From Pseudomonas putida (GTDB taxonomy: Bacteria; Pseudomonadota; Gammaproteobacteria; Pseudomonadales; Pseudomonadaceae): 64,000 nucleotides of DNA. The notes under the pieces are model-generated. The model did not search any database. It was not told the origin of the DNA and worked only from the letters and a program-made list of their open reading frames with translations. The stretch covers positions 2,175,501 to 2,239,500 of the forward strand of contig CP047152.1 of the NCBI GenBank assembly GCA_041879295.1. The letters are read 5' to 3'. Below, one piece after another: positions 53,741 to 62,895 of the stretch. Position 1 is the stretch's first letter. Every line of letters begins with the position of its first letter. A program made the translations under genes and the position numbers.

Positions 53741-53910
53741 GAAGGTTGCCCAGCCTTTGGAGCCCTCGCTAAGTCAACGCATTAGCGGTTGTTCCCTGAG
53801 AGCAGCACTAAATACGGCTACCCACACATTCGGGGTATGTCACCCTTGGGCGAATCCACCGATAGTGAACTCATCGGCTCGATCCGGAGCACTCACACGA
53901 TGGAGTTGCC

Positions 53911-55048: not shown

Positions 55049-56461
55049 ATGGCCACCCCAAGCAAAGCATTCGCCATTGCCCACGACCCGCTGGTGGACG
55101 CCGACAAGGCCCACTACATGCACGGCTACCATGTGTTCGACGAGCACCGCGAGCAAGGTGCATTGAACATCGTCGCCGGTGAGGGCGCCTACATTCGCGA
55201 CACCCATGGCAACCGTTTCCTCGATGCCGTCGGCGGCATGTGGTGCACCAACATTGGCCTGGGCCGTGAGGAAATGGCCGTGGCCATCGCTGACCAGGTG
55301 CGCCAGCTGGCCTATTCCAACCCGTTCTCCGACATGGCCAACGACGTCGCCATCGAACTGTGCCAGAAGCTCGCGCAGCTGGCGCCGGGTGACTTGAACC
55401 ATGTGTTCCTCACCACGGGCGGCTCGACCGCGGTCGATACGGCCTACCGGCTGATCCAGTACTACCAGAACTGCCGCGGCAAGCCGCACAAGAAGCACAT
55501 CATCGCCCGTTACAACGCCTACCATGGCTCCACCACCCTGACCATGTCGATTGGCAACAAGGCCGCCGACCGGGTGCCGGAGTTCGATTACCACCACGAC
55601 CTGATCCACCACGTCTCCAACCCCAACCCGTACCGCGCGCCAGACGACATGGACGAGGCGGAGTTCCTCGACTTTCTGGTAGCGGAGTTCGAGGACAAGA
55701 TCCTTTCGCTGGGTGCCGACAACGTGGCGGCGTTCTTCGCCGAGCCGATCATGGGCTCGGGCGGGGTGATCATTCCGCCCGAGGGCTACTTCCAGCGCAT
55801 GTGGCAGCTGTGCCAGACCTACGACATCCTGTTCGTCGCCGACGAAGTGGTGACCTCGTTCGGGCGTCTGGGCACCTTCTTCGCCAGCGAGGAACTGTTT
55901 GGCGTCACCCCAGACATCATCACCACCGCCAAAGGCCTGACCTCGGCGTACCTGCCGCTGGGCGCGTGTATTTTTTCCGAGCGCATCTGGCAAGTGATTG
56001 CCGAGCCGGGCAAGGGCCGTTGCTTCACCCACGGTTTCACCTACAGCGGCCACCCGGTGTGTTGCACGGCGGCGCTGAAGAACATCGAGATCATCGAGCG
56101 CGAGCAACTGCTCGATCATGTCAAGGACGTGGGGGGATACCTTGAGCAACGTTTGCAGAGCCTGCGCGAGCTGCCGCTGGTGGGGGATGTGCGCTGCATG
56201 AAGCTGATGGCCTGTGTCGAGTTCGTCGCCAACAAGGCCAGCAAGGCACTGTTCGCCGATGAGGTGAACATCGGCGAGCGGATCCACAGCAAGGCGCAGG
56301 GAAAAGGCTTGCTGGTGCGTCCGATCATGCACCTGAACGTGATGTCGCCTCCGTTGATCATCACCCATGCACAGGTGGACGAGATCGTCGAGACCCTGCG
56401 CCAGTGCATCATCGAAACCGCGCGTGAACTCACGGCACTTGGCCTGTACCAAGGCCGATGA
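55049..56461 (+). CDS. Class III omega-aminotransferase
   Basis: 470 residues. The PLP lysine is Lys295 (TTAKGLTSAYLPLG), with DAVGGMWCTNIGLGREE and FHGS-like YHGSTTL motifs. AAGGAG lies six bases before the ATG. Similar enzymes (SpuC-type) transaminate putrescine, cadaverine or beta-amino acids with pyruvate. Its binding-protein neighbour supports a polyamine or related amine. It overlaps the LuxR gene by ATGA. Confidence 0.9.
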   Translation: MATPSKAFAIAHDPLVDADKAHYMHGYHVFDEHREQGALNIVAGEGAYIRDTHGNRFLDAVGGMWCTNIGLGREEMAVAIADQVRQLAYSNPFSDMANDVAIELCQKLAQLAPGDLNHVFLTTGGSTAVDTAYRLIQYYQNCRGKPHKKHIIARYNAYHGSTTLTMSIGNKAADRVPEFDYHHDLIHHVSNPNPYRAPDDMDEAEFLDFLVAEFEDKILSLGADNVAAFFAEPIMGSGGVIIPPEGYFQRMWQLCQTYDILFVADEVVTSFGRLGTFFASEELFGVTPDIITTAKGLTSAYLPLGACIFSERIWQVIAEPGKGRCFTHGFTYSGHPVCCTAALKNIEIIEREQLLDHVKDVGGYLEQRLQSLRELPLVGDVRCMKLMACVEFVANKASKALFADEVNIGERIHSKAQGKGLLVRPIMHLNVMSPPLIITHAQVDEIVETLRQCIIETARELTALGLYQGR

Positions 56462-57363
56462 ACCTGGCGCAAAGGGCTGTGCGCGGGCGTGCCTGGCAGG
56501 CTAGACTGCCGGGCATGACCCAGGCCTCTCCCGACACCCCGCTTACCCTCACAATGGGCGCGCTGCAGCAGTGGCACGCGGCGTTGCAACGCGCCCTGGC
56601 CCATGGCGAAACCCCCGAGGCGCTGGAGTATGTGGCCGCTGCCATCGGCCAGTTGGTGCAGGTGGAGTCGATGATGATCAGCCTTGAGTGCCAGGGGCGG
56701 GCACCGCAGTTGCTGTACCAGCAAGGCATCCCCGAACGGCACCGGGCCGCCGTGCTGGAGCGCTATTTCAGTGCCGGCTACCTGCTGGACCCTTTCTGCC
56801 TTGCCGTGCAAAGCGGCCTGGCCGAAGGTTTCTACCACCTGCAGGAAATCGCCCCCGACAACTTCTTCGAAAGCGACTACTACAAGGCCTATTACCTGGG
56901 TACAGGTTGCAGTGAAGACAGCTACTACATCGTCGACCTCAGCCCAGGCCGCAAGCTGTCGCTGAGCCTGTTCCAAGGCTGCAGCGGCAAGCGCCTGAAT
57001 GCCGGGCAGGTCGACCTGTTGCGTGCGCTGGAGCCGATGGTGCGCGAACTGCTGGGGCGTTATGCCCGGCACAACCTGGAACCGGGCGCTGCATCAACCG
57101 AGCGTGGCAGCCTGCAGGCAGCGTTCGACAGCTTTGGCTGCCAGGTGCTGACCGACCGCGAGCGGGAAGTGGCGCACATGATCTTGCGCGGGCACTCGGT
57201 GAAATCTACCGCGCTGGAGCTGGGTATCTCGCCGGAGACCGTGCGCATGCACCGCAAGAACCTGTACATGAAACTTGAGATCAACTCGCAATCGGAGTTG
57301 TTTGCACGATTTATCGACTGGTTACGCGGTGATCAGCTGGAAATCCTTAGCGTAACGCGGTGA
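56458..57363 (+). CDS. LuxR-family transcriptional regulator 1
   Basis: 301 residues, ATGA overlap with the aminotransferase stop. An N-terminal sensory region (YFSAGYLLDPFCLA, EIAPDNFFESDYY) is followed by a LuxR helix-turn-helix (LTDREREVAHMILRGHSVKS to GISPETVRMHRKNLY). It shares the central sensory motif with the LuxR protein at 58865, so the two are paralogues or partners. No AHL-synthase gene is nearby, so this is probably not quorum sensing. An internal Met at 56515 is an alternative start. Likely acts at TATACC-N4-GGTATA sites. Confidence 0.87.
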   Translation: MNLAQRAVRGRAWQARLPGMTQASPDTPLTLTMGALQQWHAALQRALAHGETPEALEYVAAAIGQLVQVESMMISLECQGRAPQLLYQQGIPERHRAAVLERYFSAGYLLDPFCLAVQSGLAEGFYHLQEIAPDNFFESDYYKAYYLGTGCSEDSYYIVDLSPGRKLSLSLFQGCSGKRLNAGQVDLLRALEPMVRELLGRYARHNLEPGAASTERGSLQAAFDSFGCQVLTDREREVAHMILRGHSVKSTALELGISPETVRMHRKNLYMKLEINSQSELFARFIDWLRGDQLEILSVTR

Positions 57364-57372
57364 TCAATTTTC

Positions 57373-57388
57373 TATACCTCCCGGTATA
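57373..57388. promoter_or_regulatory. Inverted repeat TATACCTCCCGGTATA upstream of eutH
   Basis: A perfect 6-4-6 palindrome, followed by TGGA, at 128 bases before the eutH-like start. The same repeat with the same flank occurs at 61872-61887 before the SDR gene. Candidate LuxR-type operator. Confidence 0.65.
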
Positions 57389-57516
57389 TGGACAGCCCTG
57401 CACCTTGCCGCATAGCTTAACCCTCGACGGGGCGCGCCATGCTCAAGCCATAACAACAACGATGCCCCGTTACATTTCAGTCCTGCCAACCCAAAACTCT
57501 AAAAATGAGGCGGCAA

Positions 57517-58749
57517 ATGGAAAGCATCGGCACCTATGTCATCTACGTCATCATGGTGTGCGCGGTACTGGGTGCCCTGGCATCCATCTACAACCCCGAA
57601 GGCGAACTGGGCCAGGAGTTCATCGCCGGCCTGCACAGCATCGGCCCCATCTTTATCCCGGTAGCCGGCATCATGGCGGCGATCCCGTACATTTCAGCTG
57701 GTATCAGTCATGTGATCGCGCCACTGTTCCAGGCCATCGGGGCCGACCCTGGCATCGCCGGTCCCATCTTCATCGCCTCGGACATGGGCGGCTACCAGTT
57801 AGCCAAAGCGCTGGCGCAAAGCCAGGAAGGCTGGATCCTAGGCCTGATCACCGGCTTTCAGTGCGGCGCCACCATCATCTTCGTCATTCCGGTCGGGTTG
57901 GCCATGCTGCGCAAGGCCGACCACAAGTACATGGCACTGGGGATCATGGCCGGGCTGCTGACCATTCCGCTGAGCATCATGATCATTGCCATGACCATGC
58001 AGGCGCTTGGCCTGAGCGTGCGTCCGGACATCGCTACCACTGGCGCCGCTACCCAGGCACTGCACTTCACCTGGGCAATGCTGCTGCGCAACCTGATGCC
58101 GTTGATCCTGTTTTGCATTGCCCTGGCAGCAGCATTGCGCTACTTCCCCACACTGATGGTGTACCTGTTCCTCAAGCTCGGCCAGTTCATGTACATCGCC
58201 GTGGTTCTGGTGCTGGTAGCGTCCATCGTGCAGTACTTCACCGGCCTGTTCAGCCACCTGTTCGGCAGCTGGGGTTTTGCGCCGATCATCGCCGATGCCG
58301 ATGATCAGTTTCGCGCCTTGGAAATTGCTGGCTACATCGGCCTGATGCTGTGCGGGGCGTTCCCCATGGTGCACTTGCTCAAGCGCTTCCTGGCGCGGCC
58401 AATCGAACGGGTTGCCTCGCGCTTTGGCATGTCTGGTGTCGGTGCGGCCGGGGTATTGGCGGCCTCGGCGAATATCCTGGCCATGTTTCGCTTGGTCAGC
58501 GAAATGCCGCCCAAGGACAAGGTATTGGTGATCGCTTTCTCTGTGTGCGCCGCGTTCACCTTTGGCGACCACATGGCCTTCTCCGCCAACTTCCAGCCCT
58601 CGCTGATACTGCCGTTGATGATAGGCAAACTCAGTGGCGGCCTGATCGCCATGCTGCTGGCCAGTTGGCTGGCGGTGCCCAAGGCGCAGGAGTTGGGGCG
58701 TCAGGACGCTGCCGCAGGTGTCTGCAAGGGGGTGGCCGAGCCGTCCTGA
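57517..58749 (+). CDS. EutH-family transporter (ethanolamine transport protein-like)
   Basis: 410 residues and about ten membrane segments. Motifs of the EutH family are plain: GPIFIASDMGGYQLAKALA, PVGLAMLRKADHKYMALGI, GAFPMVHLLKRF and TFGDHMAFSANF. The start at 57517 is preferred because AGGCGG lies six bases upstream (the earlier ATG at 57505 supplies the Shine-Dalgarno). EutH moves ethanolamine in enterics, but eutBC are absent here, so the substrate may be another amino alcohol or amine. It is followed by a strong terminator. Confidence 0.85.
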   Translation: MESIGTYVIYVIMVCAVLGALASIYNPEGELGQEFIAGLHSIGPIFIPVAGIMAAIPYISAGISHVIAPLFQAIGADPGIAGPIFIASDMGGYQLAKALAQSQEGWILGLITGFQCGATIIFVIPVGLAMLRKADHKYMALGIMAGLLTIPLSIMIIAMTMQALGLSVRPDIATTGAATQALHFTWAMLLRNLMPLILFCIALAAALRYFPTLMVYLFLKLGQFMYIAVVLVLVASIVQYFTGLFSHLFGSWGFAPIIADADDQFRALEIAGYIGLMLCGAFPMVHLLKRFLARPIERVASRFGMSGVGAAGVLAASANILAMFRLVSEMPPKDKVLVIAFSVCAAFTFGDHMAFSANFQPSLILPLMIGKLSGGLIAMLLASWLAVPKAQELGRQDAAAGVCKGVAEPS

Positions 58750-58768
58750 GCAAAAGCGTCATGCGCAT

Positions 58769-58807
58769 AATCCGGAGCGTCCTGGGCGCTCCGGATTTTG
58801 TGTTTTT
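58769..58807 (+). terminator. Rho-independent terminator after the EutH-like gene
   Basis: Stem AATCCGGAGCG (58769-58779) with CGCTCCGGATT (58787-58797), seven-base loop, then a T-rich tail (TTGTGTTTTT). Confidence 0.85.
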
Positions 58808-58864
58808 AACCGATCAAGGCGGTAAGGTCATGCAGGCCTTCGGTGCATGAGCGTGTGGTGAACA

Positions 58865-59662
58865 ATGACAAAAGATGAGGCAAACGAGTTGGCAGCGGTG
58901 ATCGAGGCGATCGGCAGCGAACAGCTGGGACCGGCGCTGGATGCGTGGCTGCGCAGCAAGCTGACGTTCGACATGAGTTGCGCCTACCTGTTCCAGTTCA
59001 ATCAACCAGCACTGCTGGTGCATAACGGGTACAACCGTACGGTCACGGAGCGTACGTTGAACGCCTACGTGCGCGGCGGCTACCTGCTTGACCCGTTCTA
59101 CGTTGCTTGCGTCAACGAGCACCCAGCCGGGCTATGGCGCATGAGCGAACTGGCACCTGACTGCTTCTTCTCTTCAGGGTTTGCCATTTCCAAGGACATC
59201 CACCCCTGCGTGTCGTCCGACTATGGGACGGCGGTGGATGAGGTGGGCTTCATCATTCCCCTTCGGCCCCGGTTGGCGATCGTCTATTCGCTGATGCGCA
59301 ACCACGGCAGCGGGGATTTCGGTGCAGGAGAAATGGACCTGTTGGCTGCAATGTCGCCGCTGCTGGCTTCGGTTTTTGGTCAGCACTGTCGATTGCGTTA
59401 CGCTGATATCCTGCGCGCAGCACCAGAGGGGGTGGTGCTGGAGGACGCCTTCGTAGAGATCTTGCAAGGGCAACTGACTGAAACGCAGCGCCTTATCGCC
59501 AAGTTGTTGTTACAGGGGCACAGCAATGCGTCGATTGCGCGGCAGCTGAATATTTCCGATGGGACGGTAAAGGTGCACAAGCACAACATCTATCAGCGCC
59601 TGGAAATTTCATCCAACGCCGAACTGTTTCGCCTGTTTATCGATTATCTGGCCAAGGGCTGA
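58865..59662 (+). CDS. LuxR-family transcriptional regulator 2
   Basis: 265 residues. Sensory half with YVRGGYLLDPFYVAC, ELAPDCFFSSGF, then LuxR helix-turn-helix (LTETQRLIAKLLLQGHSNAS to NISDGTVKVHKHNIYQRL). The GYLLDPF and ELAPD-type motifs match LuxR regulator 1. Separate transcript after the eutH terminator. Its stop codon forms the first bases of a long perfect hairpin. Convergent with the FAD oxidase gene. Confidence 0.87.
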   Translation: MTKDEANELAAVIEAIGSEQLGPALDAWLRSKLTFDMSCAYLFQFNQPALLVHNGYNRTVTERTLNAYVRGGYLLDPFYVACVNEHPAGLWRMSELAPDCFFSSGFAISKDIHPCVSSDYGTAVDEVGFIIPLRPRLAIVYSLMRNHGSGDFGAGEMDLLAAMSPLLASVFGQHCRLRYADILRAAPEGVVLEDAFVEILQGQLTETQRLIAKLLLQGHSNASIARQLNISDGTVKVHKHNIYQRLEISSNAELFRLFIDYLAKG

Positions 59663-59700
59663 TACAGCAAGGGGCTGCAAAGCAGCCCCTTGCTGTATCA
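59660..59700. terminator. 18-bp perfect hairpin between convergent luxR 2 and FAD-oxidase genes
   Basis: TGATACAGCAAGGGGCTG at 59660-59677 pairs exactly with 59683-59700; the first TGA is the luxR stop. A bidirectional terminator is likely, though the T-run is short. Confidence 0.75.
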
Positions 59701-59708
59701 GGTACAGG

Positions 59709-60980
59709 TCACCTGAACAGCGGACTCAGGTGCTCGCTGAGGTAGATCCCTTGCGGATCGAGCTGGCGGCGCAGCTTACGGAAGTCCTCGGCACGCGGGT
59801 ATATTGCACTCACATCTTCACCCGTCAGGAAATGCAGCTTGCCCCAGTGCGGTCTGGCGCCATAGGAACGCAGGATCTGATCCACCGCCCGCAGATAGTC
59901 CCAGTAGTCGGTACCCGGCTGGCCGGACACTGAAATGGTCACGCTGTCCTGCTCGAAGAATGGGCTCATCCACGCCCCGTCACCGGCAGTAAAGCGGTAC
60001 TCGATGGGGTAGATGGCCTTGGGGAAGTCCTCCAGCATCAGCTTGCGCACGGCCCGCAACGCTTCCTTGCTGTGGCGCAACGGCACAGCGTATTCCAGCT
60101 CGTGAAAGTTGGGCAGGTACTCGATCGGGTACACATCCGAGCTGTAGGCCACTTTCTCGAACTCGCTTTCCCAGATCGGGTGGCCGGTGATGTCCATGAC
60201 CTTCACTTCGCAGACATCGGTGGTGCGCCCGCTTGTAGAGGTGGCGGCGGTATCGGGTAGGCAATAGCAATGCCGGCTTTGCTCGTAGGGGCACCAGAAG
60301 AAGCTGAAGTGGCGGTGTTTGCGTGCCAGTTCGTCGTGCTTTTCCATCACGCTTTCGAAGTCTTCGCGCCAGATGCGCTCGTGCAGGTTGAAGCTGTCGG
60401 TCACCTGCAAGGTCAGTTCGGAAACAATGCCCAGTACGCCCAGCGACACCCGACCCGCTTGTAGCAGGTCAGGGGTGCTTTCGTCGACCACGAGTATTTC
60501 GCCATTGGGTTGCACCAGCTTCATGCCGACAATCGACGAGGCCAGGTTGCCGAGGGTCAGACCGGTGCCGTGGGTACCGGTAGTCAATGCGCCTGCAATC
60601 GACTGGCTGTCGATGTCGCCCTGGTTGACCATTGATAACCCGGCGGCACGCAATGTCTTGCCCAAGGCATTGATGGTGGTGCCGGCGGCAGCGGTGACGC
60701 GCTTCCTCTCGTGGTCGATATGGCGTACGCCGCTCATGTTGGCCAGGGTCAGGTGCAGGCCATTGGTCAGTGCCACTGGGGTGAAGGAATGCCCCGAGCC
60801 GGCCACGCGCACGTTCATGCCATTGCTGCTGGCCTGGCTGACCATTGAGCACAGTTCGTCCTCGCTGGCCGGTGCCCCGCGTGCTGTACGGATGCAGGAC
60901 TGGTTACCGGCCCAGTTGCGCCAGTGCGCGTGTTCAAGGCCGAATTCGTTGATATGCATGTTGTTGGAAGAGGTGCTCAC
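59709..60980 (-). CDS. FAD-linked oxidase, D-arabinono-1,4-lactone oxidase/alditol oxidase family
   Basis: 423 residues from a GTG at 60980 that has AGGAGA five bases upstream; the frame upstream is unlikely. N-terminal FAD domain with RVAGSGHSFTP (the His position used for covalent FAD in this family) and THGTGLTLGNLASSIVGM; C-terminal ALO domain with PHWGKLHF near the end. Members oxidise sugar lactones, alditols or polyols with O2. 28 bases downstream of the SDR gene in one operon. Confidence 0.87.
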   Translation of the reverse strand: MSTSSNNMHINEFGLEHAHWRNWAGNQSCIRTARGAPASEDELCSMVSQASSNGMNVRVAGSGHSFTPVALTNGLHLTLANMSGVRHIDHERKRVTAAAGTTINALGKTLRAAGLSMVNQGDIDSQSIAGALTTGTHGTGLTLGNLASSIVGMKLVQPNGEILVVDESTPDLLQAGRVSLGVLGIVSELTLQVTDSFNLHERIWREDFESVMEKHDELARKHRHFSFFWCPYEQSRHCYCLPDTAATSTSGRTTDVCEVKVMDITGHPIWESEFEKVAYSSDVYPIEYLPNFHELEYAVPLRHSKEALRAVRKLMLEDFPKAIYPIEYRFTAGDGAWMSPFFEQDSVTISVSGQPGTDYWDYLRAVDQILRSYGARPHWGKLHFLTGEDVSAIYPRAEDFRKLRRQLDPQGIYLSEHLSPLFR

Positions 60981-61008
60981 ATCGTTCTCCTGCCGGTTGT
61001 TCTTGTAA

Positions 61009-61776
61009 TCAGAGGGCGGTGTAGCCATTGTCGGCAAACAGGTGCGCACCGTTTACGAAACTGGCGTCGTCACTGGCCAGGAACAAGGCTGCGCTGGCGA
61101 CTTCCGAGGGTTGGCACAAGCGCCCCTGGGCGGCAGCGATGGCCTGTTCGCTGACGTCCACGCCATGTTTGCGCAACATATCGATCTCGCGCAGGCCGTG
61201 GGCGGTGGCGATGAAGCCCGGGCAGATGGCATTGGCGCGAATGCCTCGGTCGCGAAACTCCACAGCGATAGCCCGGGCGAACATATGGGTGGCACCCTTG
61301 CTGGTGCAATACAGCACCTCCATCGGCGTGCCCACCACTGCCGAGATGGATGAAGTGCAGACGATACTGCCGCCGCCGGCCGCGAGCATGCCCGGCAACA
61401 CCGCGCCGGTGACCAGGAACATGCTCTTCACGTTCACGGCCATGATCCGGTCCCATTCTTCTTCACTGGTTTCCAGGAAGGGCATGGCCGACAGGATGCC
61501 CGCGTGGTTCATCAGCACGGTGATGTGGCCGAAGGCCTCTTCTACGGCCGCCACCGCGGCCTTCACTTGTTGTGCGTCCGAGACATCGGCGGCGGCGAAG
61601 ATGGCCTGGTAACCTGCATCACGCAATCGCCTTGCAACTTCGGCGCCCTTGCTGCCGGGCAGGTCGACAATGCCTACCCTTGCCCCTTCTACCGCGAACA
61701 GCTCCGATGCGGCTAGCCCGCAGCCACCCGCACCGCCAGTGATCAGCGCCACCTTGCCGTTAAGACGTCCAGCCAT
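61009..61776 (-). CDS. Short-chain dehydrogenase/reductase
   Basis: 255 residues. Coenzyme motif TGGAGGCGLA near residue 14, NHAG in the central strand, the catalytic Tyr-x3-Lys in LYCTSKGATH and the Ser before it in SSISAVVG. GGGAG lies seven bases before the ATG. Substrate could be an alcohol or polyol linked to the FAD oxidase; first gene of the two-gene operon. The TATACC repeat at 61872 lies 95 bases upstream. Confidence 0.88.
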   Translation of the reverse strand: MAGRLNGKVALITGGAGGCGLAASELFAVEGARVGIVDLPGSKGAEVARRLRDAGYQAIFAAADVSDAQQVKAAVAAVEEAFGHITVLMNHAGILSAMPFLETSEEEWDRIMAVNVKSMFLVTGAVLPGMLAAGGGSIVCTSSISAVVGTPMEVLYCTSKGATHMFARAIAVEFRDRGIRANAICPGFIATAHGLREIDMLRKHGVDVSEQAIAAAQGRLCQPSEVASAALFLASDDASFVNGAHLFADNGYTAL

Positions 61777-61871
61777 GTTCGACTCCCGATGATTTTTGAT
61801 TGACTGTCTTGAGCCCGGGCGTTTCGCGATTCGCGTGCCGGAGCATGAAACAGATCATCGGGAACATCCAT

Positions 61872-61887
61872 ATACCGATGGGTATAC
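61872..61887. promoter_or_regulatory. Inverted repeat TATACCGATGGGTATA upstream of the SDR operon
   Basis: Read on the SDR strand: TATACC-CATC-GGTATATGGA, identical in arms and flank to the eutH-side site at 57373. Same orientation relative to the downstream gene. Confidence 0.65.
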
Positions 61888-61924
61888 GGGGCACGCATAG
61901 GCAATGGGGCAGGGCTATAGAGTC

Positions 61925-62010
61925 CCTGTGGGGCCTGCCCGCGAAGCAGGAGAACCGGTGCATAGCACGGGCTTTGCCCGTGTTCGCCGGCGCGCCCGCT
62001 CCCCACAAGG
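61925..62010. repeat. Degenerate REP-like paired palindrome between SDR and catR
   Basis: CCTGTGGGG at the left end matches CCCCACAAGG at the right end, with GCCCGCGAAG and TTCGCCGGCGCGCCCGC inside and a small ACGGGC/GCCCGT stem in the centre. It has the layout of a REP pair but with diverged sequence. Confidence 0.5.
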
Positions 62011-62022
62011 TGCATGGTGTGT

Positions 62023-62895
62023 TCATATTGCCTGTTGCTCGATCAACGCCAGGCACCGCTTCACGATCGGGCTTACATCACCCTTGCGCCGGCTGAGGAT
62101 GATGGGGCTGACGGCGCCGCTATCAAGCAGGCCGACATACTCGATATCGGGACGGTGCTGCTGCTGTACCGATGCTGGCACCAGGGTCACACCGACGCCA
62201 ACCGCTACCAGGCCGATGGCGGTCTGCAGTTCGTTGGCCCACTGGCTGACACGAATGCTCATGCCGTGGTGGGCGAACAGCGCCAGCACGTGGTCGGCAT
62301 AGCTGGGCCGGGGATTGGCCGGGTAGAGGATGAACGCTTCGCCAGCCAGCTGGGCCAGACTGAGCGGGCTGCCCGCCAGGGGGTGGCCCTTGGGCAGCAC
62401 GGCCACCAGCGGGTCCTCGCACAGCACCTGCTGGTGAATCACCGGGTCGTCGATGCGAATGCGCCCGAAGCCAATGTCGATACGCCCGCTTTTCAGCGCC
62501 TCCACCTGTTGCAGTGTGGTCATCTCGTTCAGGCCCAGTTCCAGCTCGCTGTCCTGGCGAAGTTCGCGGATCAGCTCCGGCAGCACGGTGTACAGGGTAG
62601 AGGGCGCAAAACCGATGCCCAGCCACTGGCGCTGGCCCTGGCCGATGCGGCGGGTGTTGTCGCTGATGTTCTGCAACTGCTGCAGCACGGTGCAGGTCTG
62701 TTCGTAGAAGAAACGGCCGGCCTCGGTCAGCCGCAGCGGACGTTCGCGTACCACCAGCAGGGTGCCGAGCTGGTCCTCCAGTTGGCTGATCTGCCGGCTC
62801 AGTGGTGGCTGGGCGATGTGCAGCAGCTCGGCGGCGCGGGTGAAGTTCAAGGTCTCGGCCAAGACTTTGAAGTAACGCAGGTGGCGCAGCTCCAT
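62023..62895 (-). CDS. catR: Catechol operon regulator CatR (LysR family)
   Basis: 290 residues from Met at 62895 (the conserved LysR start MELRHLRYFKVLAE; longer frames upstream are rejected). Helix-turn-helix NFTRAAELLHIAQPPLSRQISQLE and an effector domain of the CatR/BenM class. Activates catBCA with cis,cis-muconate. Divergent from catB; the operator at 62897 lies directly before its start, so it also represses itself. Confidence 0.93.
   Translation of the reverse strand: MELRHLRYFKVLAETLNFTRAAELLHIAQPPLSRQISQLEDQLGTLLVVRERPLRLTEAGRFFYEQTCTVLQQLQNISDNTRRIGQGQRQWLGIGFAPSTLYTVLPELIRELRQDSELELGLNEMTTLQQVEALKSGRIDIGFGRIRIDDPVIHQQVLCEDPLVAVLPKGHPLAGSPLSLAQLAGEAFILYPANPRPSYADHVLALFAHHGMSIRVSQWANELQTAIGLVAVGVGVTLVPASVQQQHRPDIEYVGLLDSGAVSPIILSRRKGDVSPIVKRCLALIEQQAI

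Follow-up and report, generated by a model that had tools for sequence, protein, structure and literature searches.

What do two perfect copies of one palindrome do within a single gene cluster of Pseudomonas putida, and which regulator reads them? The window analysed here (the whole 64,000-nucleotide stretch, C1:2175501-2239500 of a 6.05 Mb genome) carries TATACC-N4-GGTATA twice, the copies lying 4.5 kb apart and each 5' of one operon of the same cluster, the first before a gene for an EutH-family transporter and the second before genes for a short-chain dehydrogenase (SDR) and an FAD-linked oxidase of the alditol/aldonolactone oxidase family (ALO). We consider it likely that LuxR2, one of two adjoining LuxR-type paralogues, controls a small catabolic regulon with the palindromes as its operators, acting as a ligand-responsive class II activator of eutH and of SDR-ALO. 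The features concerned are:

57373..57388, + strand: Operator 1 (putative), TATACCTCCCGGTATA, 5' of eutH and kept upstream of eutH orthologues where eutH is the first gene
61871..61886, - strand: Operator 2 (putative), TATACCCATCGGTATA on the - strand, 5' of SDR-ALO, with conservation upstream of SDR
57505..58749, + strand: EutH-family transporter gene (Pfam EutH, 4.5e-118; NCBIfam NF011668, above cut-off)
58865..59662, + strand: LuxR2, VqsR-like LuxR-type regulator and probable binder of both operators (GerE Pfam match, partner survey, modelled sensor fold)
59709..60980, - strand: ALO (Pfam, structure-sequence alignment)
61009..61776, - strand: SDR, the most constant LuxR2 partner (Pfam, 54-locus survey)

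The first-pass annotation had reported both perfect copies; the one at 57373-57388 was recovered at the same coordinates, and the second exists but lies at 61871-61886, one base from the 61872-61887 given there. Its claims that the match shared by the two sites, each read toward its downstream gene, extends to TATACC-N3-CGGTATATGGA and that the window holds no third copy both held, the latter even at two mismatches, a level at which 0.16 matches are expected by chance and 2 of 100 shuffles gave two matches. Only two places in the whole genome match with up to one mismatch, which favours the earlier reading over one with many unlinked copies. The genome-wide count was nevertheless rejected as evidence, because it is not above that of a reversed control pattern either in this genome (three places for the control) or across 149 Pseudomonas genomes, where 12 exact copies of the palindrome, spread over 9 genomes, compare with 14 of the control in 13 genomes. 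What goes beyond chance is the location of both copies before operons of one cluster, together with their retention in relatives.

This retention was evident in several comparisons. All but two of the 12 exact places (G003:2458809 and one in G084) have an orthologous eutH no more than 6 kb away, and 8 of the 10 genomes with an EutH orthologue at 75% or above carry the exact palindrome, versus 1 of the 139 others (Fisher 8e-11). Across ten eutH loci (the window and nine fetched), the sites precede probable transcription units regardless of gene order, in the layouts site-eutH-luxR2, site-SDR-ALO and site-SDR-eutH-luxR2, some sites having 1-3 mismatches. Sites 5' of the same genes are kept in other Pseudomonas and are degenerate in Brucella/Ochrobactrum-type loci and Gordonia, and this conservation upstream of orthologues again favours the reading first proposed. 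Hits outside such clusters include, besides G003:2458809 and that of G084, G138:144915 and G130:C165; the analysis of such hits extended to the open reading frames of L037, in a listing that takes in neither L045 nor L046.

Additionally, a LuxR2 profile scan of named genomes, with candidates sought by two peptide patterns of which one was the recognition helix GTVKVH[KR]H, gave 77 loci from the best 80 of 150 relatives; 54 of the 77 (L056-L109) encode a LuxR2 relative of at least 41% identity, close relatives included and some loci being short. The ten-eutH-locus and 54-LuxR2-locus surveys are not independent because genomes are shared between the sets (L062/G024, L063/G134, L074/G072, L077/G067, L070/G051, L099/G130 and L100/G060). 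SDR upstream regions numbered 56, from 52 of the 54 loci and the window, since some loci have two or three SDR genes and L081 and L094 yielded none. In 53 of these regions, 11 or more of the 14 positions of ATATACC-N4-GGTATAT are matched within 400 bp, and in 51 within 200 bp; among 1120 resamples of the 200-bp regions under a first-order Markov model, 0.45% reach 11. By locus, 53 of 54 were scored and 50 reached 11 or more, the best score falling inside a coding region in a few (e.g. L102). Genes internal to operons are at background, with 17 of 19 ALO upstream regions scoring 7-9; in the exceptions, L084 and L085, no recognised gene stands between a site and ALO. Likewise, 42 of the 54 luxR2 upstream regions score 7-9 and 12 score at least 10; in 11 of these 12 the site starts 30-63 bp 5' of a luxR2 divergent from SDR, and the twelfth (L107) has a weak match at 382 bp.

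The position of the sites within their promoters suggests how they may work. We aligned on the palindrome 49 distinct Pseudomonas promoters, the set without duplicates of 52 picked for having a site that scored at least 10 (eutH at least 12, ALO at least 11) less than 250 bp from the start; lower-scoring rows were excluded, so that palindrome conservation in this set is partly due to the choice of rows, whereas TGGAC and TAnnnT were not used in the choice. A second conserved block appeared at a near-fixed distance. Directly 3' of the right arm stands TGGACN (G 40, G 41, A 42 and C 35 of 49), and about 17 nt after this hexamer stands TAnnnT (T 28, A 41 and final T 46 of 49). In 34 promoters the best TAG[CT]TT match falls 31 or 32 nt away from the dyad. 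Read as -35 and -10 elements, these blocks would put the dyad at about -43.5, which fits the geometry of a class II activator. The eutH promoter of the window has an 18-nt spacer and a predicted dyad at about -44.5. The elements in the window, with their letters checked, are:

57389..57394, + strand: probable -35 of the eutH promoter, TGGACA, abutting Operator 1 (position-specific conservation in 49 promoters)
57413..57418, + strand: probable -10 of the eutH promoter, TAGCTT (49-promoter alignment, 18-nt spacer)
61865..61870, - strand: probable -35 of the SDR-ALO promoter, TGGATG (49-promoter alignment)
61842..61847, - strand: probable -10 of the SDR-ALO promoter, CATGCT (49-promoter alignment)

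For the TGGA tail common to both sites, a -35 element is a better reading than operator sequence, and TATGGA was rejected as part of the operator since a -35 explains its conservation in the 49 promoters better. A scan of 56400-62100 found no consensus sigma-70 promoter, with 1.6 expected from shuffles, as would be expected if an activator is needed. The same scan speaks against LuxR2 being a repressor released by its ligand, as does the promoter layout in Pseudomonas, where the dyad abuts the -35, its distance to the -10 hardly varies, and both elements are poor, as is typical of activator-dependent promoters. A degenerate site does start 30-63 bp ahead of the luxR2 start codon in 11 Brucella/Ochrobactrum-type and Gordonia loci, a position that would allow autorepression, and we regard repression as an improbable mode, though the least improbable of the alternatives.

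The two paralogues keep different company. The first-pass annotation had proposed that one or both LuxR proteins bind the palindromes; this is supported for LuxR2, which is kept with the sites and very probably binds them, but not for the second paralogue:

56515..57363, + strand: LuxR1, LuxR-type paralogue, 34% identical to LuxR2, judged not to belong to the regulon (partner survey)

In the 54 LuxR2 loci, SDR was found nearby in 53, EutH in 42 and ALO in 27, and LuxR1, the aminotransferase AT3 and SBP in none (presence being a tblastn match of at least 55% for SDR and ALO, 45% for EutH and 60% for AT3 and SBP, and absence of LuxR1 meaning no LuxR1 match outside the LuxR2 gene). The luxR1 gene of the window ends 9 bp before Operator 1, and this proximity, with the identity to LuxR2, is what could favour LuxR1, alone or with LuxR2, as the binder of both palindromes. 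We rejected this candidate as quite unlikely: most of the 54 loci that lack it retain a site, its recognition helix differs (ETVRMHRKN, against GTVKVHKHN or GTVKVHRHN in Pseudomonas LuxR2), and its relatives lie downstream of SBP and AT3 in 13 named Pseudomonas loci, where a different box ending GGGTATG stands upstream of SBP before a conserved ATAGT (14 of 14, the 13 loci and the window at 53833). This box is probably LuxR1's own operator. In the window it occupies 53817-53867, 5' of the SBP-AT3-LuxR1 operon, and ends GGGTATG followed by ATAGTG, with similar boxes in the 13 Pseudomonas loci.

LuxR2 orthologues (at least 60% identity, the next match being 36%) occur in 11 of the 149 genomes, and the longer pattern TATAYCNNNNGRTATATRGAC, with up to one mismatch, was found in 9 of these 11, all 14 hits lying within about 7 kb of luxR2, versus 4 of the 138 genomes without an orthologue (5 hits; reversed control 2 hits; Fisher 4.8e-10). 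Furthermore, the half-site letters vary between groups with differing recognition helices: GTAKLHRSN (L095, L096 and L098; GTTKLHRSN in L097) is paired with TATAAC/TATACT, and GTAKIHRHN (L090, L092 and L093) with TATAAC/TATGCC, a correspondence seen by inspection. That the palindromes belong to another, unlinked regulator with LuxR2 a mere neighbour has in its favour the few copies outside clusters, the longer motif in those 4 genomes and the weaker LuxR2 relatives in 106 of 149 genomes at E <= 1e-15, but is very improbable given how the longer motif tracks the LuxR2 orthologue and how the half-sites vary with the helix.

The C terminus of LuxR2 carries a GerE helix-turn-helix (Pfam PF00196, 2.5e-16, residues 203-257), to which the closest solved DNA-binding domain by sequence is that of StyR (1yio, E 1.5e-10, recognition helix TVKVHRHN). 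The StyR operator, ATAAACC/GGTTTAT, resembles TATACC/GGTATA; StyR, of FixJ/NarL type, is however a response regulator, and LuxR2 has a VqsR-like ligand-binding domain in place of the receiver. The N-terminal sensor domain was modelled with a LuxR/VqsR ligand-binding fold (Foldseek matches), closer to VqsR (structure 5xhx, 20% domain identity) than to receptors of acyl-homoserine lactones (AHL). The sensory motif that the first-pass annotation saw in both LuxR proteins is LLDPF, which lies inside this sensor domain, modelled as such for LuxR2. LuxR2 had no match to Pfam Autoind_bind (PF03472) at E<=0.001, the only such match in the genome being elsewhere (C1:4835974), and a search for a luxI synthase (PF00765) gave no match in the genome, nor did it in the control genomes. 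VqsR, an orphan LuxR-type protein of Pseudomonas aeruginosa, has the sensor-domain fold that was modelled for LuxR2 and is reported to bind the qscR promoter and negatively regulate qscR (PMC4211393); LuxR2 differs in lying in a transporter-dehydrogenase cluster where its putative operator is conserved. LuxR solos of plant-associated bacteria (PAB) offer another likeness, that of a LuxR-type regulator of a non-AHL small molecule: according to PMC10134790, PipR responds to an ethanolamine derivative, the solos surveyed were collected by their Autoind_bind domain and the PAB solos adjoin pip genes. In contrast, LuxR2 lacks the Pfam Autoind_bind match and adjoins SDR, EutH and ALO.

The comparison shows that the sites are conserved, that they have a recurrent place in their promoters and that their partner is LuxR2, not LuxR1, and it adds a modelled sensor fold; from these we infer LuxR2 binding, activation rather than repression, a ligand and a substrate. 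LuxR2 would be a one-component activator that joins a VqsR-like ligand-binding domain to a GerE helix-turn-helix. Its ligand-bound dimer would bind TATACC-N4-GGTATA about 43 bp 5' of the start site and, placed against a weak -35 (TGGAC), would recruit RNA polymerase by class II activation. Both eutH and the SDR-ALO operon would be switched on at the same time, which would co-induce the uptake of a single small hydroxylated compound (an amino alcohol or polyol-like) and two steps in its oxidation. A VqsR-like ligand-responsive activator would explain the sites, their positions, the partners and the helix-site correspondence. The earlier proposal of one regulon for the EutH transporter, the dehydrogenase and the lactone/alditol oxidase is supported by site conservation and LuxR2 linkage, with binding predicted. 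If so, the cluster gives a catabolic regulon of many Pseudomonas and some other genera an operator and a regulator precise enough to test, assigns one of two adjoining LuxR paralogues to it, connects a VqsR-like sensor, of a kind known from quorum sensing, with a probable role in nutrient sensing, and yields an operator-promoter pattern usable to find regulon members in other genomes.

Several observations weigh against activation by LuxR2 from these sites. Palindrome totals per genome do not exceed those of the reversed control, and the case is one of location and conservation only. SDR upstream scores fall below 11 in L082 (10), L107 (10) and the Gemmobacter locus L102 (9), the best match lies more than 320 bp from the SDR start in L085, L100 and L101, and L094 (Halomonas, a short contig) has neither SDR nor site. 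The longer motif was derived partly from genomes on which it was tested, so that this test is not fully independent, and the two LuxR2 genomes in which it was not found, G072 and G134, have the exact palindrome with a TTTA tail instead of TGGA. In 15 of the 49 promoters the best -10-like match is at other distances, and an operator at -43 could also be compatible with a repressor. Finally, the correspondence between helix and site is not a strict one, since Gordonia combines TATGCC/TATACC half-sites with the helix GTAKLHRHN.

As for the substrate, the partner enzymes give some indication. ALO has Pfam FAD_binding_4 and ALO domains and aligns with xylitol oxidase (2vfr) and galactonolactone dehydrogenase (8ot8), the former alignment covering the GSGHSF, ExR and WGK stretches, which have a catalytic role in VAO/ALO oxidases. 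SDR matches are generic, the best four including 2-hydroxypropyl-CoM and galactitol dehydrogenases. The transporter is EutH in 42 of the 54 LuxR2 loci and an NCS1 permease in L086 and L089; L073 has EutH and NCS1 in separate operons, and Gordonia L105 has an APC permease. The EutH-family permease is shared with ethanolamine utilisation operons, but in Pseudomonas loci such as L048 and L051 EutH (about 57% identical) adjoins EutB, EutC and an aldehyde dehydrogenase. Relatives of EutB and EutC (queries from L048, Pfam-confirmed; E<=1e-10) were found in none of 64 sources (63 loci and the window), the controls L048 and L051 being positive, and distant aldehyde dehydrogenases (31-40%) occurred in 8 of the 64, none orthologous to the eut-linked enzyme. 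We rejected the known ethanolamine pathway on the lack of EutB/EutC and on the NCS1 or APC permeases that replace EutH in some loci. The substrate most likely belongs to the small polyols or amino alcohols. No publication on this regulon or its substrate was found in a search that left most subscription journals outside, and the TRIS-degradation gene set described in PMC10848231 differs from this cluster. A third EutH group (L053, L054 and L055; about 48-50% identical) has a DeoR regulator and FAD-dependent oxidoreductases as neighbours, joined in L053 and L055 by an FGGY kinase (by Pfam for L053 and one L054 protein, by similarity for the rest); this context suggests that EutH-family proteins also carry non-ethanolamine substrates.

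Among ten distant alphaproteobacterial LuxR2 relatives, 8 have such a palindrome next to luxR, which in 7 cases fits TATAYC-N4-GRTATA exactly, and no palindrome of TATAYC type was found beside luxR in L110 and L114; the six relatives aligned have the helix GTVKVHRHH or GTVKVHRHN. It is possible, and we propose it tentatively, that the VqsR-like fold marks a broad family of nutrient-sensing LuxR proteins (Pseudomonas, Brucella/Ochrobactrum-type and other alphaproteobacteria, and Gordonia), each using a TATAYC-type dyad near -43 to activate an adjoining uptake-oxidation operon, with VqsR as a quorum-sensing offshoot. If true, the LuxR2 ligand would hint at the kind of molecule that VqsR senses. 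Separately, the TATAYC-type palindromes of L111, L112, L113, L115, L124, L126, L127 and L129 lie between luxR and a divergent SBP gene, and a CATA element stands on the SBP side at a near-constant distance from the palindrome (8 of 10 loci).

Lastly, two further features of the window delimit its transcription units:

58769..58797, + strand: intrinsic terminator between eutH and luxR2 (z -5.6)
59659..59701, no strand assigned: perfect 20-bp inverted repeat with a 3-nt loop, probable bidirectional terminator between the convergent luxR2 and ALO

Because the strong first terminator separates it from eutH, luxR2 is probably expressed from its own promoter or by read-through. Elsewhere, L073 (P. 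vlassakiae) has three site-bearing operons, SDR-NCS1-ALO2, SDR-EutH-LuxR2 and SDR-ALO (L073:3537-13182). A short SDR-like open reading frame of 176 aa, possibly a decayed SDR gene, lies between site and ALO at L044:8043-8573, and L042 and L100, which have a contig in common, give a partial SDR hit resembling it. The record of L063 is titled Pantoea sp. Ap-967 and carries a Pseudomonas-type cluster; it is probably mislabelled.

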